Source: a virus
DNA length: 28,341 bases
IMG/VR virus record: IMGVR_UViG_3300020477_000101
Coordinates: 1-28,341 of that record
Strand: one strand, 5' to 3'
The notes below the pieces were generated by a model. The model did not search any database and was not told the origin of the DNA. It saw nothing but the letters and a program-made list of their open reading frames with translations. A program made the position numbers and the translations under genes. Positions 2,707 to 24,294 of this stretch are shown in pieces (positions within the stretch are counted from its first letter, which is position 1; each line of letters opens with the position of its first letter).

Positions 2707-2735
2707 AAGCTACGAACTTTTATGCTAAAAGTCAA
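2707..2735 (-). promoter_or_regulatory. Early-type promoter before the Nmad1-like gene
   Basis: TTGACT (2735-2730) and TAGCTT (2712-2707) are separated by exactly 17 bases, and the site is nearly identical to the one at 9013-9041 (TTGACTTTTAGCA followed by a GTAGCTTTA block). The predicted start of transcription would leave a leader of about 17 bases before the ATG at 2683. It is a sigma-70-like site; the copy before gp43 and a looser copy before gp32 strengthen the call. Confidence 0.7.
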
Positions 2736-3351
2736 GCTTTTTTATTTGTCTTTTGATTTTTTTATTTAGATAGTATACATAAATATGTTTTGGTTTTCTC
2801 TTCTTCCAAAAAATATTCTTGTCTCCACTATCATAGCGCCGTTTTAGCTCTCTACCATATGGTCTTTCTTTCTGATTCAATGAACGACTGTGCATTTCCT
2901 TACCATCCACCATCAATATTCTAGCACCAGCAGTTTCACCCAAATAATCAAAGTTACTAGCTTTATATATTATGCCAGAATGACCATAGTGTTGATCAGC
3001 AAAAGAAACTATGACTTCCATATCTGTATATTTTTTCAACCACCTAAAAGTTTGACCTATAAAATAACTTTCTGTATTCTTAGGTGTGTCATCTATACAA
3101 ACTAATCTTCTTAGTTCTAAACATTTATTTGGATTGATAGGATTGTATTTAGCTGCTGTTGCTGGCATAGATGGTATAGCATACATCATAGCACCAATCA
3201 TCTTAGGTAAACCAAAGTTACCCTCTCCATATAATCCAAAATGATATAGCGATTGTACACCATTTACATTATGCGAGTAATGGTGTTTTTCTATAAACTG
3301 AACTAAGGATTTTCTTGGTATCTCTTCAACAGTGTAGTCCGTAACCGACAC
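2725..3351 (-). CDS. Mom-like DNA modification protein (GNAT-related), copy 1
   Basis: The 208-residue protein carries the blocks LELRRLVCIDD (78-88), VIVSFADQHYGHSGIIYKAS (113-132) and a basic end with KHIYVYYL (188-195). This arrangement matches proteins annotated as the Mom family, whose Mu member adds a carbamoylmethyl group to adenine N6 in phage DNA and shields it from restriction. A paralogue with the same blocks lies at 4942-5703. The start is a GTG sharing a base with the gp62 stop (TAGTG), so it is coupled to the clamp-loader genes. The exact modified base cannot be read from sequence, and a plain acetyltransferase is an alternative. Confidence 0.78.
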   Translation of the reverse strand: MSVTDYTVEEIPRKSLVQFIEKHHYSHNVNGVQSLYHFGLYGEGNFGLPKMIGAMMYAIPSMPATAAKYNPINPNKCLELRRLVCIDDTPKNTESYFIGQTFRWLKKYTDMEVIVSFADQHYGHSGIIYKASNFDYLGETAGARILMVDGKEMHSRSLNQKERPYGRELKRRYDSGDKNIFWKKRKPKHIYVYYLNKKIKRQIKKLDF

Positions 3352-4030: not shown

Positions 4031-4954
4031 TCACTTTATTATTGTTAGTAATTTTACCATTGTAGCCATAAAATTTATTTCTTTATCCACTACAACTATG
4101 TCATCTCTTTGTCCCTCAGCTAATGTCAAAATAGTTTCAGCAGTATGTCCACTAGCCCAATCATCCATTGTATCATAGAGCAATCTGAACCCATCAGAGA
4201 AATCCGTAACCTTACTATCTGCTAAGAGTTTTCTTATCTTTTTGAAAGCATCTTTCTTATTGTCATTTTTCAATACTTCAATCAATGTCAATTTGTAATC
4301 ATTTTCTAACAATGCCTGTCTATCTATAATTAACATCTGATCTACTACTTGTCTTTGAGCAGAATTTATTACTCTACGAATGTCAGGATATCCAGCATCT
4401 ACTAAACTAGCAACATCTGCAGTTTTTCTAGAAATATTCTCTTCTGATAAAATATTATGTAGGTGCATAGCAACCTCTTTCTTCGATGGTGGTACAATCT
4501 GAAATGATTGACAACGACTTTGTATTGGGTCTATGATTCTTTCTACGAAGTTACAAGTTAGGATAAACCTACAATGTTTAGAGAAAGTCTCCATAAGGTT
4601 ACGAAGAGCAGCTTGTGCATTCGGTGTTATGTAATCACACTCATCCAATATTATGATTTTCATATCTTGAAATCCCATAGTGGAAGCGAAATTACGAACC
4701 TTATTACGAACTGTATCTACACTATTCTCATCCGAAGCATTTATATATAGATGGTCACATTCTATACTGTTAACCAGCATTTTAGCTAGAGTTGTTTTAC
4801 CAGTACCAGCTCTACCAAACAACAATAAGTGTGGCATATCCCCACTCTTTAGATAAACCTCTACTTTACTTTTTAGGTGTTCATTACCAATATAGCTTTC
4901 TAATTCTGTAGGTCGGTATTTCTCAACCCACAAACTATGTTCTATTCTTGCCAT
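4031..4954 (-). CDS. 44: Clamp loader large subunit, gp44-like AAA+ ATPase
   Basis: A 307-residue AAA+ protein of the RFC-small/gp44 type. Visible motifs are Walker A GRAGTGKT (47-54), Walker B IILDECD (101-107), a sensor-1-like CNF (134-136) and the arginine-finger SRC motif (146-148). It also starts with the typical LWVEKYRP head (8-15). The protein drives ATP-dependent loading of the gp45 clamp. Its start overlaps the end of the upstream Mom-like gene by 13 bases. Length is close to T4 gp44 (319 residues, from memory). Confidence 0.96.
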   Translation of the reverse strand: MARIEHSLWVEKYRPTELESYIGNEHLKSKVEVYLKSGDMPHLLLFGRAGTGKTTLAKMLVNSIECDHLYINASDENSVDTVRNKVRNFASTMGFQDMKIIILDECDYITPNAQAALRNLMETFSKHCRFILTCNFVERIIDPIQSRCQSFQIVPPSKKEVAMHLHNILSEENISRKTADVASLVDAGYPDIRRVINSAQRQVVDQMLIIDRQALLENDYKLTLIEVLKNDNKKDAFKKIRKLLADSKVTDFSDGFRLLYDTMDDWASGHTAETILTLAEGQRDDIVVVDKEINFMATMVKLLTIIK

Positions 4955-5703
4955 TTTTTATTATCTACCTCTATTTTAGTTATTTCAACATCGTGTTTAT
5001 AATTTTTTGGATAATCCATAATAGGGTGTTTCATCATTTTTTTGAAGTTTCTATTTTCTTTTTTACTACCAAGAAAATAAATGTATCTATGTTTACTAGC
5101 TTCTTTCTTCAACCAAAAATCTCTACCCAAAGCCTTTATCAATTTTTTAGGATCAGCAGAACCATATTTAGAATACACACTTCTACTGTGCATCCAATCG
5201 TCATCTTCATTGACTTTCAAAGAATATGTTGGTGCTAACTGAAAATCACCACAACCTTGGTATATCCAATTAGTAGCTTGATAGATAGCACCATCATGCG
5301 ATTGTTCGGGATCTGCGTATGATATTAGAACCTTTATATTTGGAGCATGCTTTTTCATCCATTTGAATGATAATGATAATGCCAAAGACTCAATATTTTT
5401 TCCATAACCATCGTGTATAAATAGTCTTGTCAATTCTAAAACATTCTTATTTTCTATAATTTCCTCTTTGAAAATAGAGCCTACAACTCTTCTTCCAACT
5501 GGAAACCCATAACAAGCAACTCCAACCAATTTTTCATTCTTATCAAAAAATTGATGTTGACTGTCTTCATCGTAAAATATTCCTAATGGATATCTACACG
5601 AAGACAGTCTACCACTATAGTGATTTTTTTCAATAATATCTCTAGCCAATCTCTTATCTATTGGTCTAAGAGATACTTTTGATTTATCTACAAATGCTTC
5701 CAT
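4942..5703 (-). CDS. Mom-like DNA modification protein (GNAT-related), copy 2
   Basis: The 253-residue protein shares with the gene at 2725-3351 the blocks ELTRLFIHDGYGKN (90-103), ISYADPEQSHDGAIYQATNW (127-146) and a basic KHRYIYFLGSKK (204-215), as well as an N-terminal EKNHYSG that parallels EKHHYSH there. These are Mom-family features. It is longer by an insert around residues 40-60 and a C-terminal tail. It lies between the sliding clamp (TAATG junction) and gp44 (13-base overlap), so it would be made with the replisome. Two divergent copies suggest two substrates or an obligate pair; both ideas are inference. Confidence 0.78.
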   Translation of the reverse strand: MEAFVDKSKVSLRPIDKRLARDIIEKNHYSGRLSSCRYPLGIFYDEDSQHQFFDKNEKLVGVACYGFPVGRRVVGSIFKEEIIENKNVLELTRLFIHDGYGKNIESLALSLSFKWMKKHAPNIKVLISYADPEQSHDGAIYQATNWIYQGCGDFQLAPTYSLKVNEDDDWMHSRSVYSKYGSADPKKLIKALGRDFWLKKEASKHRYIYFLGSKKENRNFKKMMKHPIMDYPKNYKHDVEITKIEVDNKKWQE

Positions 5704-6419
5704 TAATCATTCGAATCAGCCACTAAGTAATACAAAGCATCATAATCATCTACTTTGAATTGAATTCTAGCAAGACCCTTTGACGAAATCTCAAGAGTTG
5801 CACTCTCACATTCCTTATTTGCAGTAAGCACATCTTTTAGTAAATTAGCACTAAAAGACACATTTTCTATTTTAGATAACTCTTCAGTTTCAACTGGAAT
5901 AGTGACCCTATTTGTGTTTATTTCAGCATAACCAATTACAACCTTACATTCGTCATCTGTAGAGAGGACAGTAAAGTTACCTGCATCTGGCAAAGCTGAT
6001 ACACCTGATACGAATTTATTCATAAAAGATTTATCTACTTTTATTTTTATTTCAAAATCAGGAACACTTTTCATATTAGGTGCTTTACTAATAACAGATA
6101 AATCTGATAGCATATAATTTACACTGGATGTGCTGTCTGATAAAGTAAGTGCAATTGCTTTATCATCACTTCCCAATAAATCCATACTAATATTATCTGA
6201 TAAAACAGAAAGTAACTTTACTAACTGTTCGGTATTATAAACACCCATTTCCACATTATCAAAAGAAAAATTCTTCATAGACAACTCACCCAATAGGTTT
6301 TTGTCACCAGTTATGAATCTAGTAGAAAGTTTGCTACCGTCACTTACCCAAGAGACGGAAGAACAATTTCCATTTAGATAGTATTTTTCGATGAATCGTG
6401 TAATAGAGATTTTATTCAT
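5703..6419 (-). CDS. 45: Sliding clamp, gp45-like
   Basis: A 238-residue protein just downstream of the polymerase and upstream of gp44, the standard T4-like order 43-45-44-62 with an added gene. Strand-rich segments such as TRFITGDKNLLGELSM, NTEQLVKLLSVLSDNI and LARIQFKVDDYDALYYLVA match gp45 proteins of marine T4-like phages. gp45 forms a trimeric ring that tethers gp43 and, in T4, also activates late transcription. Length is near T4 gp45 (228 residues). AAGGAG lies 7 bases before the ATG. Confidence 0.88.
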   Translation of the reverse strand: MNKISITRFIEKYYLNGNCSSVSWVSDGSKLSTRFITGDKNLLGELSMKNFSFDNVEMGVYNTEQLVKLLSVLSDNISMDLLGSDDKAIALTLSDSTSSVNYMLSDLSVISKAPNMKSVPDFEIKIKVDKSFMNKFVSGVSALPDAGNFTVLSTDDECKVVIGYAEINTNRVTIPVETEELSKIENVSFSANLLKDVLTANKECESATLEISSKGLARIQFKVDDYDALYYLVADSND

Positions 6420-6450
6420 TTATTACTCCTTATTATTTAATAGATATATA

Positions 6451-6479
6451 CATATATACATATCAATGTTATTTCTCAA
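6451..6479 (-). promoter_or_regulatory. Possible promoter before the sliding-clamp gene
   Basis: TTGAGA (6479-6474) and TATATG (6456-6451) are 17 bases apart in a 62-base AT-rich gap between the polymerase and clamp genes. It lacks the TTTTAG extension seen in the better promoter set. The whole gap is an alternating TATATA run, so a chance match is likely. Confidence 0.3.
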
Positions 6480-6481
6480 AA

Positions 6482-8980
6482 TCAAAAAAATCTTTCAAGA
6501 GATGTCTTTTTATTTACTGGAACATCCCATTTTAATGTATCATAAAACATCATAATTTTCTTTTCAAGCATTTGTGCATACATTTTTTTATGGTCTAGGT
6601 AAGTCTTTATAAATTCAATAATTTGTGGTGGGTCTTCATAACCTTTATAACCACAAGACTCCATAGCTAACTCATTCTGTTTTAGATAAACCCACTTTAT
6701 CTTTTGTGCTTCACTTATCTTTTCATATTGTTTAACTAAGCCAAAATGCCCTAATAAATCATTGTAGTTTATAGCAGCCTTTACATGCGCTGGTGAACCT
6801 TTAGCAAACTGAGTAAAGTGTCCATTCTTACCAGCAGAATATTTCTTTAGATTTTTCACACCAGTTGGCATTGCTATTCTATCGAAGTCCACCAACTTCA
6901 TAGAATCTTTGAAATTTACTATTCTCTCATCTATCTTTTCTTTTGGTACATTTGCCAGAATGTCTTCCAATACACTTTTTAGTAATTCACCCATAGCCTT
7001 TGGAAAATTACTACGAACTAAGTCCAAACCCTTTACATGCAGTTTGTTTACCTTTACTCCATTGTCATTGATAATCTTCATACCATATCGTTTCTTCACA
7101 ATAAATAAACCACTCTTAGCAATCAATTCCTGCTTTATCTCAAACCTATGTTTGTCTAGGTTTAGAAACTTCTTACCAAAATAATCATAAGACTTATTTA
7201 AATATGTCTGTAACTCATCAGCAACATCTAAGATTCTTTTACTCATCATAGTTTCGCTATCATAGTCCATATTAGGAAATCTTTTCTTTACCAATGGAAG
7301 AGCTGAATAAAATACTGAATCTGTATCAATGTATATACAATAATCTTTGTCATCTCCCAACTCTTTGTTATAGAAAAAATTACCAATCTTTTTCGTAAAT
7401 TTAATCAACTCCTGACCTGTAAGTGTAGTAGCTTCCGCATTATCTATATCATAAAACCTAAATACTGGCAAACCTAACACACCATACAAAGAGTTTAGAA
7501 CAACCTTTTGAATCAACTGACGACTTTTAAAATAAACATATTTATCTTCATCACCAGCATCACCAAATTTCTTCATCAACTTTCTGTACTCCACACGAGT
7601 ATCAAACCACTTTTCCAATAGAGCTGGAATCAAACCTTTTTTATCACTACGATATAATACACCATTAGAAGATACTGAAACTTCGTTTTTATCAAAGAAA
7701 TCTTTTAGTTCTGTTTCAGTAAGTTTACCCATCTCTTTTTTACCTGACATAATGGTATATGTTTTCTTATCCCCTCTCATAAATTCTTCAATATCCCATC
7801 CAGTCAACTTACCAATTTTTGTCTCTGGTGATATATTAAGAGACATAATAACCGATGGATACATAGAAGTAATATCCAAATCAAATACCCAATCGTGTTT
7901 ACCTCTTTGTGGTGGTTGGACATAAGCACCAGCAAATTTGTCCCCATCATCCATCTTTTCAGGTCTTGGTGGCTTGTTAGGAGCAATCACTCCCAGCTTT
8001 TTTAGATAAACTAAAATAGCACCCTCTAAATATCGTGATGAAAAATATACATCCTCATATGGAACATGACCTAGATGACATACACCACGAGCCATATCAA
8101 TAAAATCTAATTTATCATTCAATCTTTTTACAAGTCGAACATCATGTATGTTATATTCCACAAATTTATCTATGTTGTGTTCATACAAATCATTCAATGT
8201 TCCACTATACTCTATCTTATTTTCACTCAATTCAAGTTCAGCAACAGCATCCAATCTATAAGATGATAGCTGAGTATATGTAAACAATCTATATAAAGCA
8301 TAGTAATCTAAACAACTGACACCAGCAAACATATACCTCTTTCTATGTTTATTCCAATCAACAATTTTTATAGGTGAAAGTAAGTCTGCAGCACTCTTCC
8401 CAACGACAACCATAATCCTATTATAAAGATATGGCATATCGAATGTGTCGATATTCCAACCTGTAATAATGGTTGGTTCAGTTTCCAAATATACCTCAAA
8501 AAATCTTTTGTACATATCTGACTCATTATCAAATCTCTCTATGATAACATTATCTTTTGACTTCAGCCTTAATTTATTTTTTTCATCCAATACAAATGCG
8601 TAGTATGTATCATTTGATGACATATGTACTGCTATTGATGTAATTTTATTAGTAGCTTTACGATAGTCTGGAAACCCATCCGTAACTTCTACCTCAATAT
8701 CAATTGTCATTATCTTATGATTTTTAGAAATATCATCACTGTCTGTATATTTATCTACTAACACACGAGTTTCAACTGGCACATCCGATTCAAATAAATT
8801 TGATGTGTTGTGATCAAATTTGTAAACCTTTTTTAGTTTATCCCCATACAAAGATATATGAGTTCCAGCTCTGTCTTTTACATAAGCATATTTTTTATAG
8901 GGTATATTATAATATCCAAGTTCATCATCCCATATATGAACTTTTCTTTTTTTATTTTCGTAATATAAATTTTGGTACAT
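6482..8980 (-). CDS. 43: DNA polymerase, family B (gp43-like)
   Basis: The 832-residue replicative polymerase has the three proofreading motifs, MTIDIEVE (91-98), TGWNIDTFDMPY (173-184) and YNIHDVRLV (276-284). It also has the polymerase motifs DLDITSMYPSVI (367-378), KVVLNSLYG (492-500) and YIDTDSV (550-556). It ends in TSLERFF, an L-x-x-FF motif like those that dock polymerases on sliding clamps. The stop follows a run of seven T; one T fewer would extend the protein by four residues (see findings). The gene is the first after the promoter at 9013-9041 and is followed by gp45. The ATG at 8980 has only weak ribosome-binding sequence. Confidence 0.98.
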   Translation of the reverse strand: MYQNLYYENKKRKVHIWDDELGYYNIPYKKYAYVKDRAGTHISLYGDKLKKVYKFDHNTSNLFESDVPVETRVLVDKYTDSDDISKNHKIMTIDIEVEVTDGFPDYRKATNKITSIAVHMSSNDTYYAFVLDEKNKLRLKSKDNVIIERFDNESDMYKRFFEVYLETEPTIITGWNIDTFDMPYLYNRIMVVVGKSAADLLSPIKIVDWNKHRKRYMFAGVSCLDYYALYRLFTYTQLSSYRLDAVAELELSENKIEYSGTLNDLYEHNIDKFVEYNIHDVRLVKRLNDKLDFIDMARGVCHLGHVPYEDVYFSSRYLEGAILVYLKKLGVIAPNKPPRPEKMDDGDKFAGAYVQPPQRGKHDWVFDLDITSMYPSVIMSLNISPETKIGKLTGWDIEEFMRGDKKTYTIMSGKKEMGKLTETELKDFFDKNEVSVSSNGVLYRSDKKGLIPALLEKWFDTRVEYRKLMKKFGDAGDEDKYVYFKSRQLIQKVVLNSLYGVLGLPVFRFYDIDNAEATTLTGQELIKFTKKIGNFFYNKELGDDKDYCIYIDTDSVFYSALPLVKKRFPNMDYDSETMMSKRILDVADELQTYLNKSYDYFGKKFLNLDKHRFEIKQELIAKSGLFIVKKRYGMKIINDNGVKVNKLHVKGLDLVRSNFPKAMGELLKSVLEDILANVPKEKIDERIVNFKDSMKLVDFDRIAMPTGVKNLKKYSAGKNGHFTQFAKGSPAHVKAAINYNDLLGHFGLVKQYEKISEAQKIKWVYLKQNELAMESCGYKGYEDPPQIIEFIKTYLDHKKMYAQMLEKKIMMFYDTLKWDVPVNKKTSLERFF

Positions 8981-9050: not shown

Positions 9051-9551
9051 TCAATCCATTAAGAATATTTCTTGTGAATCTATCAATGTATTTTCAATAC
9101 TCCAGTATAACATCATATAACTACCTAAGCCTTTACCCTGCATCACTTTCGTTGGTGTCAATGTATTATAAAAATATCCTGCACTATCGGCTATAGAATA
9201 TACATCTGTTGTCCATCTTAGTGTATCCACATTTACATCCACTGTATCTCTATTACCGAAATTATCATACCATATAGCTTTGTTTCTACGATTAGGTAAT
9301 AATTTATAATGTCCACTTGAATCATTTTCATCCCAATACATATTACTCCACCAGTGAACAACCATTCTTTCTACAGGTAATTCTTCTGACTCTAAGTGTC
9401 CCCATATCGGCGCTGGTGTAATCCATAGGTTATCTAATATTTCAATTCTTGGTACTCGTAACATAGTTACGATAACATTTGCTTCCCTTTCTTCTTCTAC
9501 TTTGTCATCACATCCTAACAATAATAATAGTATAAGTAATCTTTTTATCAT
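9051..9551 (-). CDS. Phage-encoded lipoprotein, 166 aa
   Basis: The protein begins with MIKRLLILLLLLGC, a short basic head, a leucine core and a lipobox ending in G13-C14, so it should be cleaved by signal peptidase II and acylated on C14. The residues after Cys are acidic (DDKVEEERE), then a tryptophan-rich extracytoplasmic domain follows (LDNLWITPAPIWG, VVHWWSNMYWDEND, LRWTTDV, MLYWSI). I recognise no domain. It is coupled by ATGA to the 83-residue gene and lies just past the TonB-dependent receptor and its terminator. Phage lipoproteins often block superinfection, for example Llp of T5, which masks the TonB-dependent receptor FhuA; that role is inference here. Confidence 0.82.
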   Translation of the reverse strand: MIKRLLILLLLLGCDDKVEEEREANVIVTMLRVPRIEILDNLWITPAPIWGHLESEELPVERMVVHWWSNMYWDENDSSGHYKLLPNRRNKAIWYDNFGNRDTVDVNVDTLRWTTDVYSIADSAGYFYNTLTPTKVMQGKGLGSYMMLYWSIENTLIDSQEIFLMD

Positions 9552-9799
9552 GAGCTCATATAAGATATTATTTTTTCTATTTCGTGTTCATTACCATCAG
9601 TATCTTTAAATGTCGTTGGTAACTCTTCATAATTATATTTTGGAAACTTTCCGTGCGCTGTCATACTACCCTTTTCTCTATATGGTGGGCACTCACTTAA
9701 ATCACACTCATCCCATTGTACTTTTCCATTTACGCCTTCTATCTCCATTATGGGTTTTGAATCATTGAATAAGTGTCTTTGTGCTAATGTAATTTTCAT
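9548..9799 (-). CDS. Hypothetical protein, 83 aa
   Basis: I do not recognise this protein. It is small and acidic, begins MKITLAQRHLFNDSKPIMEI, and has a CDLSECPPYRE segment with two cysteines near the middle; no membrane segment or signal peptide is seen. An AAAAGG stands 6 bases before the ATG. The gene starts right after the strong terminator of the receptor gene, and its stop overlaps the lipoprotein start as ATGA, so the two form a small pair. Confidence 0.7.
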   Translation of the reverse strand: MKITLAQRHLFNDSKPIMEIEGVNGKVQWDECDLSECPPYREKGSMTAHGKFPKYNYEELPTTFKDTDGNEHEIEKIISYMSS

Positions 9800-9852: not shown

Positions 9853-12585
9853 TTAGAAATTAACAGTAAGTCCTAAGTTGAAATGTCTTGGTGAGCCCAA
9901 GAATACTTCAGCGTTATGAGCTGCGTGAACTTTGTCACCATACCCATTGTATTTACTGTTATCCGTTGCATCTTGGATGTAAACATCATCAAGAGCATTG
10001 AATAAATGACCTGTTAGAGTCATATCAAGACCAGCAACTTCTGGCAATTTGTAAGCCAAGTGCAAGTCTAATTTACCATACGATGGAGTTTTCCATACTT
10101 GAGCTCTGTCAGCACCATCTTCATCAACTTCACGAGCATCTGGACTCCAATCAGCATAGTGGTTATCGTACCATCTGTAAAGACCTTGTACACTCAATCC
10201 ATCAATTGGTTTCAATGTAAGACCACCAACATAAGCAGTTTGTGGCATATCACCAACTTTGAGTTCATTTAGAGCGTATTCATACTCAGTAGATGTTTGT
10301 CCAATGATTTGGTTATCATCATTATATTCCATCTCTGTGTAATCACCTTTAGCATCTCCATCAAAATACCAATTACCAATACTAACTGCTACATCTAAAT
10401 CAACCATTTCGTGTAAAGCAACTTTAGACTCTACTTCGAAACCACTGTGATTTTGATTTACACCAGTTAGGTAAATGATGTCTGTGTCACCTGAATCTCC
10501 TTGACCTGTGGTTACGGATTTGGTAAGGTTTCTATCTTTCCATTGGGTGTTATAAAAACTACCCTTGATAGCAACTAACTCACTTCCATACTCACCACCT
10601 ACTTCAAAAGATGTGAATTTCTCATTGTCTGGATTCTGCGAAACATTTCCATCATAATCAATCACATTATCTAAGATTGGTGGTTTTTGAACATATCCAA
10701 CATTAGCAAATGCTGACATTCTATCATCAAGATTGAATCTACCACCACCCTTTACTTGAAAGGTTGTGATGGATGGAGCTTCAACTACATCAGCATCAAC
10801 AGCAAAATGGTCGTGATAAGTATATCCAATTGTAGATATACCACCCATACCATAAAGGTTGATTTTTTCAGTATCATATTTACCCTGTAAGAATGTACCG
10901 AACCAATCTACTGTGGTTTCGTTGTGATAAGCAATAATATCACCTAACCCAACTTTCTTACCATCAGGTGCGTTATCATCAGCAAAGTCTACATAGTAGT
11001 CTCCACCAAGTAAATCACGAACCTCACGAGCGTGTTCAATACCAGCAGTTCTCCAATCAAGACCAATCTGAACTTCAAGTTCATCTGAAACATCATAGTT
11101 CAATTTAGAAATCAATCCATAGGTATTTTGTCTGTTAATTGAATTACGAAGTATGCCAGTTGACCTATTCTCACTATCTGACCAAGCTGAATCGATGTTT
11201 GCTGAGTTCTCAGCAATCTCACCGTTCCAATCCCACGTCCAAGGTGAACTTGCCCACCAGGAATTTCCTTCAATAGCAGGTAGTCGTTTGACACTCCCAT
11301 AGGTGCCTGTACCACCTCCTGAACCACCAGACCAGTATAATACTGAACTTAGTCTCATATCCTCATTCATATCATAGAAATGATTTAAATTGACAAGTGG
11401 TTTATGAAAGAAGTTTTCTCTTTCATTCAACATATTGGCATTGTACCTATCGGTTGTTCTCGCACCATACATATACCAATATTGTTGGCCTTTATATGAT
11501 GGGTCAACAGGTGCCCAATTTTGGTTGAAGTACCTACCAGCTTCATGTTCAAACTTATTACCAGCGACATAAGCTGAATCATCATATCCATCGATACTTC
11601 CAGCTAATTCTTGTGAATAAGTTGCTATGTTCTGTTTATATAGGTTCTGTCCATGTCTTTGTGGAGCACCAATTGCATATAACTCAAATCGATGTTCATC
11701 GTTCATCTGATAGGAACTACCAAGATAGTATGCCCATGCATCTGTCCAAGCACCATCAATAAATCCATCACCAGTCTTTCGAACTACTGTTCCACTAACT
11801 GCTAATTTATCATTGATTAGACCTGAGTTATAGTTGATGGTAGACTTTAGAAATCCACCCTCACCAACTTCCTGCTTTACTTTACCACCTTTTTCGTGAC
11901 CAGCAGGGTCGGTAATTATGTTCATTGTTCCACCAATCGATGGTGTAGCAAGATTCACGGCTGATAGACCTCTTTGCATCTGAATGGAATTGGAAGCATC
12001 AGCTACCCCATCCCAATTAGACCAATAGACCCATCCGTTCTCCATATCATTCTGGGGAACTCCGTTTATCATTACTGCAACATTCCTTTGGTTGAAACCA
12101 CGAACATTGATACGGGCATCACCCGCACCACCACCTTGTTGAGTAGCATATACACTTGGTGTCATATTCATAGCCATCGGTAAGTCTTGTGAACCAAGAC
12201 GAACTTCCATTTCAGCTTTACCCACCGTAGTATAAGCAACAGGTGTTGTTTCATCAGCCCTAGAAGCCAAGACTTCAAGTGCTGTTAGAGCAACCACATC
12301 AGTTTCTAAATCAAAACTGACGCTTCCAACTATGTCCCCAACAACAACTGATTGTGTTTGGGCTACATAACCGATGTATGAAGCAGTAACATCAAAAGTA
12401 CCTGTACCCGTCTCAATGACGAACTTACCCTCAGCGTCTGTTACGCCACCAAGTTCAGTACCCTCTACTGTCACATTTGCTCCAACAAGTGGCTCTTCTC
12501 CGTTGCCAACAAAACCAGTTACGGCTTGTCCAAAGACAATACCTACTGACATCATCAGTACAGAGAATAGATTACGATATTTCAT
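9853..12585 (-). CDS. TonB-dependent outer-membrane receptor with N-terminal carboxypeptidase-regulatory-like domain
   Basis: The 910-residue protein starts with a signal peptide (MKYRNLFSVLMMSVGIVFGQ). A carboxypeptidase-regulatory-like beta-sandwich follows (about 22-100, PLVGANVTVEGTELGGVTDAEG). A plug domain comes next (about 110-225, with DARINVRGFNQRNVAVMING and GLSAVNLATPSIGGTMNII), then a strand-rich barrel ending in an aromatic residue (LGLTVNF). TPVAYTTV at about 109 could be the TonB box. The ATG at 12585 has AAGGAG 6 bases upstream; an earlier in-frame ATG at 12606 lacks one. The region looks less AT-rich than its neighbours (40-48% G+C in sampled lines against about 27% in gp43), which points to capture from a host, probably Marinimicrobia or Bacteroidota. 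The imported substrate is unknown. The gene is full length with no break. Confidence 0.95.
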   Translation of the reverse strand: MKYRNLFSVLMMSVGIVFGQAVTGFVGNGEEPLVGANVTVEGTELGGVTDAEGKFVIETGTGTFDVTASYIGYVAQTQSVVVGDIVGSVSFDLETDVVALTALEVLASRADETTPVAYTTVGKAEMEVRLGSQDLPMAMNMTPSVYATQQGGGAGDARINVRGFNQRNVAVMINGVPQNDMENGWVYWSNWDGVADASNSIQMQRGLSAVNLATPSIGGTMNIITDPAGHEKGGKVKQEVGEGGFLKSTINYNSGLINDKLAVSGTVVRKTGDGFIDGAWTDAWAYYLGSSYQMNDEHRFELYAIGAPQRHGQNLYKQNIATYSQELAGSIDGYDDSAYVAGNKFEHEAGRYFNQNWAPVDPSYKGQQYWYMYGARTTDRYNANMLNERENFFHKPLVNLNHFYDMNEDMRLSSVLYWSGGSGGGTGTYGSVKRLPAIEGNSWWASSPWTWDWNGEIAENSANIDSAWSDSENRSTGILRNSINRQNTYGLISKLNYDVSDELEVQIGLDWRTAGIEHAREVRDLLGGDYYVDFADDNAPDGKKVGLGDIIAYHNETTVDWFGTFLQGKYDTEKINLYGMGGISTIGYTYHDHFAVDADVVEAPSITTFQVKGGGRFNLDDRMSAFANVGYVQKPPILDNVIDYDGNVSQNPDNEKFTSFEVGGEYGSELVAIKGSFYNTQWKDRNLTKSVTTGQGDSGDTDIIYLTGVNQNHSGFEVESKVALHEMVDLDVAVSIGNWYFDGDAKGDYTEMEYNDDNQIIGQTSTEYEYALNELKVGDMPQTAYVGGLTLKPIDGLSVQGLYRWYDNHYADWSPDAREVDEDGADRAQVWKTPSYGKLDLHLAYKLPEVAGLDMTLTGHLFNALDDVYIQDATDNSKYNGYGDKVHAAHNAEVFLGSPRHFNLGLTVNF

Positions 12586-12615
12586 AGTAATCTCCTTTGT
12601 TATCATTAATGAAAA

Positions 12616-12660: not shown

Positions 12661-13647
12661 TTACTGACATATTGTTTCTACTAACTTCTGTGCAACCACA
12701 TAAGGATTACAATTAGAAGATGGTCTTCTATCTTCTAAATAACCTTTGTTCTCTTTAGCAACTTGCCAAGGAATACGAATTGACGCTCCTCTATCTGAAA
12801 CTCCCCATCGGAAAGTATTTATATCACAAGTTTCGTGTAATCCTGTAAGTCTTTGGTCGTTATCTACACCATAAGCATCAATATGCTGTTGATGTTTTTT
12901 TTCCAACTTTTCCATAACTGGATAAATAAAATTTTCATATCCACCATCCTCTCTCATCTCCTTTGTAGAGAAATTGGTATGGCATCCCGCACCATTCCAA
13001 TCACCAGCGATTGGTTTTGGATGTAGTGATGCTGTCAAATTGTAACTCTCACAAATTCTTTCTAATAACCAGCGAGCAACCCACAAGTCATCACTCATAT
13101 GAATTGAACCACCAGCTCCAATCTGATATTCCCATTGTCCTAACATAACTTCAGCGTTAGTTCCACAAATACTAATACCAGCTTCAATACAAGCATTCAT
13201 ATGTTCTCTTGAAACATTTTCTCCAATGTTTCTACCACAATAATAATCTCCTTGTGGTGGCGGTTCTCCTATATCTGGCCAACCATATGGTTTAGATGTA
13301 TCTAAATCATACAAAGTATATTCTTGTTCAAAACCTACCCACTCATCGATATCATCGGTTATAGTCTCTTCCAATAGTCTTCTTGTATTTGATTCGTGTG
13401 GTGTATCATCAACATTCCAAACCTCACATAATACTATTGAACTATTTGTTTCTAAAGGATTAGGGTAAACTCGTACAGGTTTCAAAACACAATCAGAACT
13501 ATTACCATCAGCCTGTTCTGTTGAACTTCCATCAAAACCCCAAATTGGTGCTTCTTCTTTTTTACCAAACTCTTTTACCACTTTCGTTTTATGTCTTATT
13601 TGTGTTGGTGTACAACCATCCAACCATAAGTATTCTAATTTATGCAT
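12661..13647 (-). CDS. Glutamine synthetase, type II (eukaryote-like)
   Basis: The 328-residue enzyme joins ammonium to glutamate using ATP. Type II features are all visible: the N-terminal WGFDGSSTEQADGNSSDC block (36-53), FEQEY (106-110) and NAEVMLGQWEYQIG (164-177). The second half adds KPIAGDWNGAGCHTN (211-225), NDQRLTGLHET (263-273), FRWGVSDRGASIRIP (279-293) and YLEDRRPSSNCNPY (303-316). The catalytic glutamates and the active-site arginine blocks are therefore kept and the length is normal for the family, so an active enzyme is expected. AAGGAG lies 9 bases before the ATG, 17 bases after the reductase stop. In this phage it is an auxiliary metabolic gene, plausibly feeding glutamine to nucleotide synthesis. 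Base composition is nearer the receptor than the replication genes. Confidence 0.97.
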   Translation of the reverse strand: MHKLEYLWLDGCTPTQIRHKTKVVKEFGKKEEAPIWGFDGSSTEQADGNSSDCVLKPVRVYPNPLETNSSIVLCEVWNVDDTPHESNTRRLLEETITDDIDEWVGFEQEYTLYDLDTSKPYGWPDIGEPPPQGDYYCGRNIGENVSREHMNACIEAGISICGTNAEVMLGQWEYQIGAGGSIHMSDDLWVARWLLERICESYNLTASLHPKPIAGDWNGAGCHTNFSTKEMREDGGYENFIYPVMEKLEKKHQQHIDAYGVDNDQRLTGLHETCDINTFRWGVSDRGASIRIPWQVAKENKGYLEDRRPSSNCNPYVVAQKLVETICQ

Positions 13648-13664: not shown

Positions 13665-15674
13665 TTAGCTAGCATAGTCTTGATCATCGTTATCACCAGT
13701 CATTGGTGTTATCTCACAAGAGTCATTGTTACAAAATTTATCTACATCGGCCTCTTCATTTTTGATTACACCGAAAGATAGTTTACCCAATTTACTTACC
13801 TCGCTTTTATAAGTTTTTTCATCAATTGCTTCGTATGGCATTTGTTTATAAGCACCATAATCGTGTCTTGGTAATAATGAAATACCTTTCAAATGGTACT
13901 GATAATAATTCAAACACGGAGCAATCTGATTTGCTTCTGTTTCAGGATTAAATGTAACTGTACAACTTACTTGATTATCAGCCCAATGTCTTTGAAGAAA
14001 AGCGGCTAAACCGAATTGTTCCCAAATCGAAAGTTCAGCCGCTGTTCTAATCCCCTCACCGACATCCACAGGAATTTCTACAACATTTGTTGTGTCCTCT
14101 GAACCAAATGCTGGTTCTATTTTATAACCTGCCTTCTTCAATGGTTCTATTAATTCTGAATGTTTGGAAATTCTTATTCGCCTAATGTAAAAACGACTCT
14201 CAGGGTAATGTAATCCTGGAGTCGCTCCTGCAAGTAAAGAAACTGTACCTGATGGTTTCACCGATGTTGTCTTGATAGATCGTGGAACAGCAAACCAATC
14301 TGAATACATTTTATCCCAATCTTGTATAACATCAAACCCATCATTTAACCATTCTTTTAAAGTATTGATTCCTCTATATGTAATAAATTGTGCTACTCCA
14401 CTTACACTACATCCGATTCTTCTATTTCGTAACATCACACGATTTGTATCTGGCCAATGTGTTCTACCTAATGTTACTGTCTTAGCATATAAGTAAGCGT
14501 ATTTGAGGGTTCTAGCGTAGTCCTCAAAGGTTTCGTGGTTGTTTGGGAATGTTTCTACTAAGCAACATAACTCATATGATTCCAATGATTGTTCTAAACA
14601 AGGATTGCCACCAGCTACTCGATGGTCTTTGTTATCACCACCATTTTTCATACGAGAATACTTTCTCATATTATCTAACCATGCAAATCCAGGCTCACCA
14701 TTATCCACAATTCGTTTTGCAGCTTCTGTATAATCCATACCCAATTCTGCGAATATACTATTATTACTTGTCCATCCATATTGTTCTCTGTGTGGGTTAA
14801 CTTTATAATTTTTCAAATCTAAATATTCTTCTGAATTAGGATCACCAAATACTATTTCAGCAGTTCTACGAACATTTCCTGCCACAACACATTTACCTAT
14901 GAGATTCATTATGTCTACAATTGTGGTTACTGTGATTGGTTCTCCACCATTTTTATCAAGAACCTTTCGTACTGCTTCGTGAACTTCTTGTAATGGTTCA
15001 TATCCACTTGACACTCCACCGAATCCACTAATAGGTGCTCCAGCAGGTCTTATCTTTTGATAATCAAATTCCATTGGTGCTTGACCATGAAAGTAACTTT
15101 CTAATAGCAACTTTAGAGATTCAACCCAACCCTCACGAGTATCAGGTATCTCATAAATTTGTTCATCTCTACTACTGTCTACTCCCTTTACAACTATTTC
15201 TCCCGCACCTTTTGTATCAAAACCAACACCGACACCTAACATACTGGCATCCATAAGGAAACAGAAAGGTTTAGCATAATCTTCTTTTAGTGTTTTCGTA
15301 GATACGAAAGCACAATTGTTTAGGGCGGCGTATAATCCCTTTTTCTCTGTGATAGGTGTTCCCATCGCCCACAGACCGCGTCCAGGAGGCAAAAACTTCA
15401 TAGTGAAAATTCGCTCATACATATCTTGAGCAGATGCTTGAGCTTGCCACGCGTTCCACCCTAATTGATGTGATTCAATCCATTCCTTTTGCATTGAATA
15501 AGTTCCCTCTACAACTCTTTGTACAGTCTCCCACCATCTTTCGTTTTTTCCATTTTCTTTAATTCTTGAATAAGTTCTCATATAAACTAATTCACCCAGT
15601 CCGTTAAATCCAAAGGGTGCTTTTTTTCTTTTATACTTACTTATAAAATTTTCCGACAATTTAAATTTGTCCAT
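13665..15674 (-). CDS. nrdJ: Adenosylcobalamin-dependent ribonucleoside-triphosphate reductase (class II)
   Basis: A 669-residue monomeric-type class II reductase that makes dNTPs from NTPs using vitamin B12. The active-site cysteines are C121 (NNCAFVS), C359 in NPCLE (with E361) and C370/C371 in the following YELCCLVET. A C-terminal redox pair C648-x4-C653 keeps the spacing of the Lactobacillus enzyme. TSVKPSGTVSLLAGATPGLHYP is the phosphate-binding region. AAGGAG precedes the ATG by 5 bases. The 64-base gap upstream has an AT-rich TATAAT stretch but no cobalamin riboswitch. Dependence on B12 ties phage DNA synthesis to host cobalamin. Confidence 0.96.
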   Translation of the reverse strand: MDKFKLSENFISKYKRKKAPFGFNGLGELVYMRTYSRIKENGKNERWWETVQRVVEGTYSMQKEWIESHQLGWNAWQAQASAQDMYERIFTMKFLPPGRGLWAMGTPITEKKGLYAALNNCAFVSTKTLKEDYAKPFCFLMDASMLGVGVGFDTKGAGEIVVKGVDSSRDEQIYEIPDTREGWVESLKLLLESYFHGQAPMEFDYQKIRPAGAPISGFGGVSSGYEPLQEVHEAVRKVLDKNGGEPITVTTIVDIMNLIGKCVVAGNVRRTAEIVFGDPNSEEYLDLKNYKVNPHREQYGWTSNNSIFAELGMDYTEAAKRIVDNGEPGFAWLDNMRKYSRMKNGGDNKDHRVAGGNPCLEQSLESYELCCLVETFPNNHETFEDYARTLKYAYLYAKTVTLGRTHWPDTNRVMLRNRRIGCSVSGVAQFITYRGINTLKEWLNDGFDVIQDWDKMYSDWFAVPRSIKTTSVKPSGTVSLLAGATPGLHYPESRFYIRRIRISKHSELIEPLKKAGYKIEPAFGSEDTTNVVEIPVDVGEGIRTAAELSIWEQFGLAAFLQRHWADNQVSCTVTFNPETEANQIAPCLNYYQYHLKGISLLPRHDYGAYKQMPYEAIDEKTYKSEVSKLGKLSFGVIKNEEADVDKFCNNDSCEITPMTGDNDDQDYAS

Positions 15675-20765: not shown

Positions 20766-22975
20766 TATATGTTAGTACCTAATTTTTCATTAACTTCATC
20801 TAATTTTACTTGAGCATATTCCTTTGGTGTATATTCTTTTCCTTTGTATACAATAATCAGATTACCATCATCATCCTTTTTCCAACCAGCTCTAGTTTTT
20901 GTTTCATTACCAGATGGGCTTAGCCCATAAGCACTTGCGTATTTGACTAAGTTATCATCATCTAAAGCACCTCTTTTTATTAAACTGGCAGTCATTACTT
21001 CATTAGCCATACCCGCATCAAGAACTTCACTATTACTAGAATCCTTTATACTATCTTCCCATTTTTGTCTCAATGCTTGTCTCTCTGATACTGGAGTTCC
21101 TGCCATAGTCATAGCAAACCCTCTAAAATAGCCATCCGTTCCAGAAATGGAAGTAGCCCTACGACCACTTGGGTCTTGAACATATCTTGTCAATCCCATA
21201 GCGTTAACTAACTTCTTACCAATTTTAGATGAAATAGCTTTGATACTTTTCTTATCCTCTTCGGAAACATCTGGCTGTGATAAAAGTTGTTTTTGAATAT
21301 TTTTTATTTCCTGTTCAGCGCGTTCTATTTCATCACCCAATACTTCAGCAGTAACATTATCACCTAAAGTAGAAGAAGCAACCTCTGGCGTACCTGACTC
21401 TGAAATTTCTACATTTTCATCATGCATATCTCTGGTTGTTCCACCACCCTTTAGTTTATACTCAACATCACCTTGTAATCGTAATGCCGTTTGTTCTTCT
21501 ACAGTAACTCTTCGGTTTATATCTTCAAATCCCTCTTTCTTCTTTTTAAAATATTCTTCCGATTTTGGTTTGTCACCATCCATATGCTTATCAACATCTT
21601 CTTCAAAAAATTGTTTCATATTTTTATCTTTTTTATTTTGATTAGCTCTTGATGAAGTCAAAACCTGATTTGCTTCGTGTTCTCTATTCTTATAATCTTC
21701 TTCTGTTGGTTGTCCATTATCTTTATTTTGAAAACCTACAACATGCTCTAAATCCATAGATTCTAAGTCAAGTGGTTCTCCAGTATAAGCATCTCTACCA
21801 CCTTGTTCTAAATACATTCTCCAAACAAGCCTTCCCCTATCATTTGATGGAACTTTACCCCTCTTTACCACAGGTTTACCATTTTCATCTTTTTTGATAT
21901 TTGGGTCATTTACATCAGATGTTATACTACCATCTTCCCGTACATAGCCAAGAAAATGTAATTTTTCACCTGATTTACCAGTTTTACCTTTACCTTTTAG
22001 TGCATTTTTTACAGCTTCTGGAAGTGAATCATAACTAGCCCTAACTGTATCTTCTGAAACTTTTCTGTTTCTAACTTTCCTAACACCCTTTTCTACTTCT
22101 TCTGGTATAGCGTCATCATACATTTCCTCTAAGCGTTTTCTATTCTTATGAAGTAAATCGATATCATCATGTCCTAGCATATTTTTACCAACACCAGCAT
22201 TCTCTCTACCCTCATATAGAAAAGCCAAGGTAGTTAGTATTAGAACTTCTTCTTGTGCATCAGCAGTTTCTAAACCTTTCTCTAATGTTTCTTCAAACTT
22301 TTCTAATTTTTTGATTCTCTTTTCTTCTTCTTTAGCCAATTCATCAAATTGAGTTCTAGCTTTTAAATTACTGATTCTCTCCTTTTGACTAACCTTACCA
22401 ACTTCTTTTTCCCTTTCTTCTGGCGTCATCTTTAAAAGTCTTTTATTCAATTTAACTTTATCTCGAATAACATCTTGTTCAGCTTCCTCTTCCTTTTCCT
22501 TTTTATATATATCGGCTCGTTTAGAAGCTTTAGCAGTTCTTGTCCATTCTGGATCTTCTGGAGACATATGACCACCATCTCCATCTTTATCTCGTTCAAA
22601 ATCTGATGTGCCACTTAATTTTCCACTATCATCTTCTGGTTTTTCTTTATCTAATCCAGCAGCTTTAACAGCAGCAACTTTATCTTTATCTTTTCCATTT
22701 TTATAATCAGGATGTGATAAATAACTTCTAGCAGTTGATTTTTTAATTTTTTGTTGTTTGCCTTTTGTGTCGGTATATGTTATAATTTTATCATCATCGT
22801 CTTTAGGTGCCTCAGTTAGATTTGAGATATAAACACTTCTTTCAGCCAACTGCCACCCAAAGTCTTTTAATACTCCTTCTAGAATCCATAAGTCTCTCTT
22901 ACTTTTTGGATTGGGCATTCCATTATTTACACGATAAGCCCATTCAATAAGAATATCATTTATACTACTGTTCAT
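20765..22975 (-). CDS. Large charged protein with a Cas9-like HNH nuclease module
   Basis: The 736-residue protein is very rich in Lys, Glu and Asp. An N-terminal domain (1-55, INDILIEWAYRVNNGMPNPK...YISNLTE) resembles a head I associate with several marine T4-like phage proteins. A long helical, likely coiled-coil part (150-240) follows. Residues 387-455 look like an HNH module: YLEQGGRDAYTGEPLDL, then MDLEHVV with H411, then an asparagine block NQVLTSSRANQNKKDKN. This order resembles the HNH of Cas9, with Glu410 where Cas9 has its second Asp. No RuvC domain, CRISPR or intron features are seen. The gene is coupled to the family A polymerase-like gene by ATGA. It may be a nuclease, a virion protein delivered with DNA, or both. 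Confidence 0.7.
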   Translation of the reverse strand: MNSSINDILIEWAYRVNNGMPNPKSKRDLWILEGVLKDFGWQLAERSVYISNLTEAPKDDDDKIITYTDTKGKQQKIKKSTARSYLSHPDYKNGKDKDKVAAVKAAGLDKEKPEDDSGKLSGTSDFERDKDGDGGHMSPEDPEWTRTAKASKRADIYKKEKEEEAEQDVIRDKVKLNKRLLKMTPEEREKEVGKVSQKERISNLKARTQFDELAKEEEKRIKKLEKFEETLEKGLETADAQEEVLILTTLAFLYEGRENAGVGKNMLGHDDIDLLHKNRKRLEEMYDDAIPEEVEKGVRKVRNRKVSEDTVRASYDSLPEAVKNALKGKGKTGKSGEKLHFLGYVREDGSITSDVNDPNIKKDENGKPVVKRGKVPSNDRGRLVWRMYLEQGGRDAYTGEPLDLESMDLEHVVGFQNKDNGQPTEEDYKNREHEANQVLTSSRANQNKKDKNMKQFFEEDVDKHMDGDKPKSEEYFKKKKEGFEDINRRVTVEEQTALRLQGDVEYKLKGGGTTRDMHDENVEISESGTPEVASSTLGDNVTAEVLGDEIERAEQEIKNIQKQLLSQPDVSEEDKKSIKAISSKIGKKLVNAMGLTRYVQDPSGRRATSISGTDGYFRGFAMTMAGTPVSERQALRQKWEDSIKDSSNSEVLDAGMANEVMTASLIKRGALDDDNLVKYASAYGLSPSGNETKTRAGWKKDDDGNLIIVYKGKEYTPKEYAQVKLDEVNEKLGTNI

Positions 22976-24294
22976 ACAAATCTCTCCGTAATGTCTTTCA
23001 TTTCGTGGTAATTCAAACCTTTCGAAACTCTTACTGGATATCTTCCATTGTTCTCAATAATCTTCTTTACCATCTTTACGAATTTCATTCCATCCTCTTT
23101 ATGAACATCAAATAAAAATGAATCGTAACTATACAAAATTATCTTACTTTTATAACCATTTATTTTTGGTAATAATTTTGTGAGTGTATTCATATTATTT
23201 TCTGTTTCCATCAACTGAACAAGATAATTAAAAAGTTTATTCTTGTTCATATCCGCCAAATTTCGTTCATATATCCTCTTATTATAAATATCTGATTCTA
23301 TAAAATTATTGGATTTATAGGTACTCCAAGTATTATCTATATATACTTGAACTTTTTTGAAAAATGGGTTCTTTTTCAGTACATCGTCTGGTATATGACC
23401 ATATAAATATTGAAACGACAGTGATTTTGCTTCATTATAACTAACTTTGTATAGTTTAGCCATATGTTTATGTACTGAACCTTTAGGGAATTTGTAATTT
23501 ACCGCGTTACCAATTAGTCTAAGATGATAAGCATCATAGTCCATTTCAACTAACATACCATCTTCTCCATGCCTACTGATGAATTTTTTACGACTTCCAT
23601 CTTTTTTATTCAAAGCAGCAAAGTTTATGCCACCAAATCTATTAGATGGACGACCAGTAGAAGTATAAGGATTGTACTCTGAATATACCATACCATCTAT
23701 AGTTTGTAATCCATTACCCTCTATTGTCTGTAAACTCTCCAACATATCATTGTTATAGGAATTCATACACTTTGGTATTGAATTAAAAGCAGTTAATTTT
23801 ATTTTATCAACAATAATTCTACAAGCTTCTAAATGTTTCAGCATTGGTATAATACAATTTATATTTGATTGTCCCCAATAGACTCTATTGAAATGTTCGT
23901 GAGCATTAGTGGTTATCTCATCAAGTGGAAATGGTTGATTGGTATCTAAGTATTTTTTCATTTGTATATCGATTACATTTTTCCAATCGAAGAAATGAAG
24001 TAGTTTTTTCTTATCATGTGTAAATATCTCATTGTCTGTCTTCATCATTTTTAGATATTTAAAATCTAAGTTCATCGCATCGGTGTGTCTGAATGGCAAT
24101 ACATACTCATTCAAATTATCATTCACATCCCCTAATAATTTAACATATAATAAACACAAATCCGTAGATAACGGATGTTTATTATCATCACATTGTACAG
24201 GAATTACAACAGAGCTATTTATTTGGAACTCTGTTATGAATTTATCCCACTCTTTGTGAGACTCAATTATTTCCAGTTGTGTGCTTCGCTCCAT
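22972..24294 (-). CDS. Divergent family A DNA polymerase-like protein
   Basis: The 440-residue protein lines up with the Pol I fold: TSTGRPSN (211-218), motif A MDYDAYHLR (251-259, Asp252), motif B YNEAKSLSFQYLYG (286-299, Lys290, Phe294, Tyr298-Gly299), N356-x3-Q360 and motif C LYSYDSFLFDV (388-397, Asp391). Both metal-binding Asp are kept. Several other residues differ: the first Arg of motif B is Tyr286, the Glu of motif A is His257, and the His and Glu of motif C are Tyr390 and Ser392. Residues 30-110 look like a decayed 3'-5' exonuclease domain without its acidic set. The start overlaps thyX by 28 bases with weak ribosome-binding sequence. Role unknown; repair, translesion synthesis or a non-catalytic role are possible. 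Confidence 0.78.
   Translation of the reverse strand: MERSTQLEIIESHKEWDKFITEFQINSSVVIPVQCDDNKHPLSTDLCLLYVKLLGDVNDNLNEYVLPFRHTDAMNLDFKYLKMMKTDNEIFTHDKKKLLHFFDWKNVIDIQMKKYLDTNQPFPLDEITTNAHEHFNRVYWGQSNINCIIPMLKHLEACRIIVDKIKLTAFNSIPKCMNSYNNDMLESLQTIEGNGLQTIDGMVYSEYNPYTSTGRPSNRFGGINFAALNKKDGSRKKFISRHGEDGMLVEMDYDAYHLRLIGNAVNYKFPKGSVHKHMAKLYKVSYNEAKSLSFQYLYGHIPDDVLKKNPFFKKVQVYIDNTWSTYKSNNFIESDIYNKRIYERNLADMNKNKLFNYLVQLMETENNMNTLTKLLPKINGYKSKIILYSYDSFLFDVHKEDGMKFVKMVKKIIENNGRYPVRVSKGLNYHEMKDITERFV

Follow-up and report, generated by a model that had tools for sequence, protein, structure and literature searches.

A divergent copy of a β-sandwich lipoprotein family of Neomarinimicrobiota and T4-like phages, located beside a phage-encoded TonB-dependent receptor

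A lipoprotein gene between a receptor and a DNA polymerase

The window, meaning the whole stretch of DNA analyzed here, is a 28,341-base IMG/VR virus record. By its gene content it can be assigned as a fragment of a T4-like phage, because it encodes a family B DNA polymerase (PolB), a clamp loader, UvsX, a DnaB-like helicase and a class II ribonucleotide reductase (RNR); neither a tRNA nor an Rfam family was found in it. A small lipoprotein gene is located between polB and the gene for a TonB-dependent receptor (TBDR), in the following arrangement:

6482 to 8980, minus strand: family B DNA polymerase (polB), downstream border of the cargo slot described below
9051 to 9551, minus strand: lipoprotein open reading frame of 166 amino acids, a divergent family member
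9054 to 9488, minus strand: predicted β-sandwich domain, residues ~22 to 166 (AlphaFold2 model, pLDDT 88, pTM 0.76)
9510 to 9512, minus strand: codon of the lipidated Cys14
9510 to 9551, minus strand: signal peptide and lipobox, MIKRLLILLLLLG followed by C and then acidic DDKVEEE, read from sequence; Cys invariant, acidic residues conserved
9548 to 9799, minus strand: partner open reading frame of 83 amino acids, with neither lipobox nor family match, independently mobile
9853 to 12606, minus strand: TBDR of 917 amino acids, ortholog of a Neomarinimicrobiota receptor
12661 to 13647, minus strand: GlnII-like glutamine synthetase; in relatives this cargo gene can precede or follow the TBDR
13665 to 15674, minus strand: class II (B12-type) RNR, fixed upstream neighbor of the TBDR in most relatives

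The lipoprotein begins with MIKRLLILLLLLGC, followed by DDKVEEE. An initial annotation recognized a phage lipoprotein with an LLG-C lipobox, and this reading is borne out: the Cys of the lipobox is invariant in an alignment of relatives of the window's own type (window-type copies), so the lipoprotein is real. Lipidation is predicted straight from this sequence. The lipidated Cys is the only one in the whole protein, whose mature part comprises ~153 residues. Searches of Pfam and PHROGs with the lipoprotein returned no match at E values up to 1; across Pfam, PHROGs, NCBIfam and PADLOC there were no matches to either the lipoprotein or its 83-amino-acid partner, and a PDB sequence search with the lipoprotein was likewise empty.

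The same annotation placed the lipoprotein directly after the TBDR and coupled it to the 83-residue partner. It does lie downstream of the receptor, but as the second gene rather than the first, since the 83-amino-acid frame starts 53 nt past the TBDR end (9853). The two small frames overlap by 4 nt, consistent with coupling, but outside the window and one near-identical contig the coupling does not hold. Homologs of the 83-amino-acid frame were found at 13 viral loci (the window and 12 others, at 58 to 80% identity), and outside the clade of the window it does not adjoin the lipoprotein. In L015 and L003 it lies ~0.3 to 1.3 kb from the lipoprotein, and in two large contigs ~29 kb away by contig coordinates.

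The host is most likely a member of the Neomarinimicrobiota, to judge from homologs of the TBDR and the lipoprotein rather than from a CRISPR match. The closest genomic relatives of the TBDR are Neomarinimicrobiota sequences (57 to 65% over the whole length), followed by those of other Neomarinimicrobiota and other FCB-group phyla at ~45 to 53%. Each of the eight genomes searched carried one clear ortholog (53 to 66%), with the remaining TBDRs far behind. The phage-encoded receptor is intact, with Pfam Plug (2.7e-13) and CarbopepD_reg_2 (carboxypeptidase-regulatory-like domain; 2.3e-13) matches, and the neighboring glutamine synthetase scored 427 bits as a GlnII-type enzyme against a cutoff of 500. 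Nothing relevant emerged when the literature was searched for a phage receptor associated with Neomarinimicrobiota. As a role for the TBDR, B12 import to supply the class II RNR was considered and checked through cobalamin riboswitches, none of which were found near 17 host orthologs. At three host loci only (L132, L139 and L177), the ortholog lies near a deoxynucleoside kinase gene, and at several an SRAP gene is nearby. Elsewhere in the window, positions 4942 to 5703 encode a Mom-like DNA modification protein (Pfam Mom, 5.2e-45), and a second frame at 2725 to 3351 resembles a Mom-like protein by eye; anti-restriction is a possible function of these genes. A DNA polymerase A-like domain (22972 to 24294; Pfam, 1.9e-5; phrog_17, 2.2e-11) accompanies the complete family B polymerase.

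The receptor-polymerase interval

In the phage group of the window, the TBDR is near-core and fixed between the class II RNR and polB. At least 309 viral stretches match it, and the order RNR-TBDR-polB recurs in nearly every long-enough contig among the best 80 of these matches. Among contigs selected through polB that had enough upstream sequence, 39 of 47 carry the TBDR and 3 of 47 the lipoprotein; these and the viral counts below come from metagenomic contigs, many of them fragments, and include near-identical ones, with shared ancestry entering the adjacency tallies only through tree counts. The TBDR is often better conserved than PolB (74 to 90% compared to 45 to 83%). Its role in the phage may be nutrient uptake for DNA synthesis. 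A TBDR in a phage is not new, because the marine megaphage Mar_Mega_1 has been reported to carry one annotated as SusC (PMC9723777). Like the window, Mar_Mega_1 is a marine phage with a TBDR, but it belongs to another phage group, and the available part of that paper describes no lipoprotein partner. The near-universal place of the receptor between RNR and polB in the present group may be new.

The interval between the TBDR and polB could be measured in 73 contigs, with fewer than 200 nt in 35 and an insert in 38. Inserts comprise dUTPase-like, glutamine synthetase, glycosyltransferase-like, adenine-methylase-like and other genes, or the lipoprotein, most of these names being read from sequence. 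The interval is therefore a variable cargo slot, and the location of the lipoprotein beside the receptor looks mostly like cargo placement. Caution is warranted here, as gene adjacency is not partnership where the gap between receptor and polymerase holds cargo.

Of 21 contigs carrying a window-type copy, the TBDR is present in 13 and directly beside the lipoprotein in 12; it is absent from eight, including contigs of 82, 73 and 42 kb that may be fragments. Other copies follow an IMP-dehydrogenase-like gene (L007), follow a second small lipoprotein 38 kb from the TBDR (L021) or lie within the core cassette described below (L004). On the TBDR tree, presence of the lipoprotein requires five changes, four of them forced by supported branches, with the site being the same each time. 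Among window-type copies, the three lines that branch off first (L049, L019 and the window) all occupy the TBDR slot. With three basal lines linked to the TBDR and at least four changes on its tree, the association of this subfamily with the site is old and recurrent, but not obligatory.

This recurrence is what speaks for an accessory role, in which the lipoprotein caps or feeds the phage TBDR in the manner of BtuG or SusD and aids uptake for phage DNA synthesis; the 12 adjacent pairs include even the most divergent copy (L049, 52%). We consider such a role doubtful. The receptor usually stands alone in the polB-selected contigs, unrelated cargo occupies the same slot, and core and host members of the lipoprotein family are mostly far from a TBDR. 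The specific partnership with the neighboring receptor that was first proposed is not supported: among related phages few carry the lipoprotein although the TBDR is close to universal, and in many phages the lipoprotein lies elsewhere. Wide occurrence in receptor-less phages, which had been named as counterevidence, is not cleanly seen, given how frequent the TBDR is and how many of the contigs are incomplete. Like SusC/SusD and BtuB/BtuG, the window has a TBDR gene beside a lipoprotein gene, with acidic residues after the lipidated Cys. SusD/RagB proteins are 400 to 560 amino acids long and α-helical, and SusD-like frames in the host genomes span 409 to 559. The window lipoprotein, in contrast, has 166 amino acids, an all-β model (pLDDT 88) and no Pfam SusD match, which rules out SusD/RagB identity, and its pairing with a TBDR is not conserved. 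The receptor itself scores 47 bits against TIGR04056 (SusC/RagA), far below the cutoff of 368.25, and the suggested SusC/SusD-like uptake pair does not survive these comparisons.

A further alternative is that the phage supplies both a TBDR and a periplasmic blocker that jams it, as the lipoprotein Llp of phage T5 jams FhuA (PMC9586334). Llp is periplasmic, with 61 residues in its mature form and a Cys11-Cys58 disulfide, and its gene adjoins that of the receptor-binding protein (PMC9586334). The window protein resembles Llp and Cor as a phage-encoded, presumed outer membrane lipoprotein with a possible role in exclusion, and its gene does adjoin a TBDR gene. The parallel with Llp drawn in the initial annotation goes no further than this: the window protein is larger (~153 residues), a β-sandwich, without the second Cys that an Llp-type disulfide would need, and without a PHROG match. 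Size, Cys content and the PHROG search exclude membership of Llp/Cor. In T5, moreover, llp neighbors a receptor-binding protein gene rather than a receptor gene, whereas the window-type gene neighbors a receptor gene, and only in some phages. It would also be odd for a phage to add its own receptor while blocking that same receptor, and we regard jamming of this kind as very improbable.

A wider lipoprotein family and its core cassette

A pattern scan of genome contigs missed host homologs of the lipoprotein, which were later found by HMM searches. A model of window-type sequences picked up remotely similar lipoproteins in 7 of the 245 Neomarinimicrobiota genomes searched (best E value 2.8e-9, obtained before host rows entered the model), and with host rows added a family member was found in 15 of 244. 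None turned up in a limited set of eight genomes from other phyla, which included no positive control. Some host members lie among ordinary chromosomal genes, and at least one host-genome contig (L335) looks phage-like and carries a gene resembling the Mom-like gene of the window. In the regions read, host members are not beside the TBDR ortholog, although a less closely related TBDR (41%) lies ~3.4 kb from one of them. A profile built from host members retrieved 56 further viral loci, almost all with a readable lipobox.

Alignment of window-type and host-type profiles with hhalign gave a probability of 95.7% (E value 1e-8). Besides the lipobox, the family alignment shows conserved motifs of the types W-S, D-S/T-x-G-Y and M-x-G-D-T, of which the window type retains the last only in part. 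AlphaFold2 confidence rose from a pLDDT of 67 without the wider family to 88 (pTM 0.76) with 36 diverse rows, which provides independent support for the alignment, and the resulting model is a compact, all-β β-sandwich. Whether the weak or the strong model was used, fold searches of the PDB yielded nothing beyond generic Ig-like (TM score, 0.3 to 0.4) and pilus-chaperone folds, so function cannot be read from the fold.

Copies from phages and from hosts are interspersed in the lipoprotein tree, with at least five changes forced, the pattern expected of a gene that benefits both, such as one for phage resistance. Window-type copies form a single clade (support 100/100) at the end of a long branch, and long-branch attraction limits how exactly its origin can be placed. 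Six contigs (G003, G006, G008, G009, G011 and G012) combine a window-type copy with one from the wider family, which makes the window-type subfamily a divergent second copy. Taken together, this is a previously undescribed family of β-sandwich lipoproteins of Neomarinimicrobiota and T4-like phages without a database entry, and the window protein is very probably an accessory, divergent copy of it, placed in the TBDR-polB cargo slot.

At ~34 of the 56 wider-family viral loci the genes follow one conserved order: a protein of ~80 amino acids (up80), the lipoprotein and a protein of ~87 amino acids (dn87), commonly followed by a transmembrane/coiled-coil protein and an XhlA-like membrane protein. 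In L337 to L391, at ~5400 to 8700 of each locus, the small proteins flank the core lipoprotein with the two membrane-protein genes downstream. Pilin-like proteins with an N-terminal methylation-type motif (MKNIIKNTSKGFTLIELVMV...) lie near the cassette in L375 (7818 to 8938). In the loci read, a nucleotide-sugar epimerase gene (phrog_540 in L351, 2.8e-73) and a glycosyltransferase gene with a weak GtrB-like O-antigen-conversion match lie directly upstream of the core copy. Where large contigs hold both a core copy and a TBDR, the two are 13 to 70 kb apart in 18 of 21 and 2.5 kb apart in the other three, which are near-identical to each other.

The small membrane proteins of the core cassette, with their weak family scores, make lysis the main rival to an envelope function. 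The family would then form the outer membrane half of a spanin-like system, with the transmembrane/coiled-coil protein as the inner half and the window copy as a spare. The recurring gene order agrees with this, and a transmembrane/coiled-coil gene lies within ~3 kb of core lipoprotein copies. Outer membrane spanins (Rz1, T4 PseT.2 and T1 gp11) are phage lipoproteins as well. In one contig only, the transmembrane/coiled-coil protein weakly matches the Rz-like spanin phrog_739 (0.0019), and the XhlA-like protein has a match to Pfam XhlA (8.5e-5) that falls short of the cutoff. In other contigs, however, the former matches only families of unknown function, and its strongly basic C-terminal tail is unlike a periplasmic i-spanin. 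The lipoprotein family is larger than those spanins and compactly folded; a conserved β-sandwich of 145 residues is unusual for o-spanins, and the C-terminal transmembrane segment of a u-spanin is missing. No endolysin was recognized by eye in the listed flanks of the cassette, and stand-alone chromosomal copies in hosts and wandering extra copies in phages do not fit lysis, a role that we consider unlikely.

The lipoprotein could also be fortuitous cargo, a host gene gained by recombination with little effect on infection. Its sparse occurrence in hosts (15 of 244 genomes) and the variable content of the slot would suit such a history. In contrast, window-type copies from different contigs retain ~75 to 80% identity, and this conservation, the invariant lipobox and the presence of several copies per phage imply selection, making neutrality distinctly improbable.

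A putative role in remodeling the cell surface

The explanation we tentatively favor, at a little under an even chance, is an outer membrane lipoprotein that changes the surface of the infected cell. During infection, the protein would be lipidated and exported to the outer membrane, probably as far as the cell surface. This location is suggested by analogy from the short acidic motif after the Cys, which matches SusD-like lipoproteins of the same phylum (CEDLDF, CEDDF) and resembles the lipoprotein export signal (LES) of Bacteroidetes (PMC5080379). The Trp, Ser, Asp, Gly and Tyr positions that never vary point to a binding surface, through which the Trp/Tyr-rich β-sandwich might bind an envelope component. 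The altered surface would most likely block adsorption of further phages, without the neighboring receptor having to be the target.

Superinfection exclusion of this kind is a possible job for the lipoprotein, held with somewhat less assurance than surface change in general. As a single guess we prefer it to the others, since these genes are multi-copy, diversifying and shared with the host and the core copy adjoins glycan-modifying genes. The exclusion role proposed in the initial annotation thus stands in part: an envelope function is reasonable for a phage-encoded, probably outer membrane lipoprotein, but action specific to the receptor is not supported. As a best guess, we rank superinfection exclusion first, a role in lysis next and an uptake partner of the receptor last. 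We also speculate, as a long shot, that the phage's own copy of a conserved host TBDR and the diversifying, multi-copy surface lipoproteins form a kit by which the phage both replaces and masks the host surface. If so, nutrients would still be imported for phage DNA synthesis while rival phages were excluded.

What is known of Neomarinimicrobiota phages comes mainly from sequence. A lipoprotein family exchanged between host and phage, often multi-copy and partly bound to a cassette, offers a way into superinfection exclusion or lysis in one of the major lineages of the ocean.
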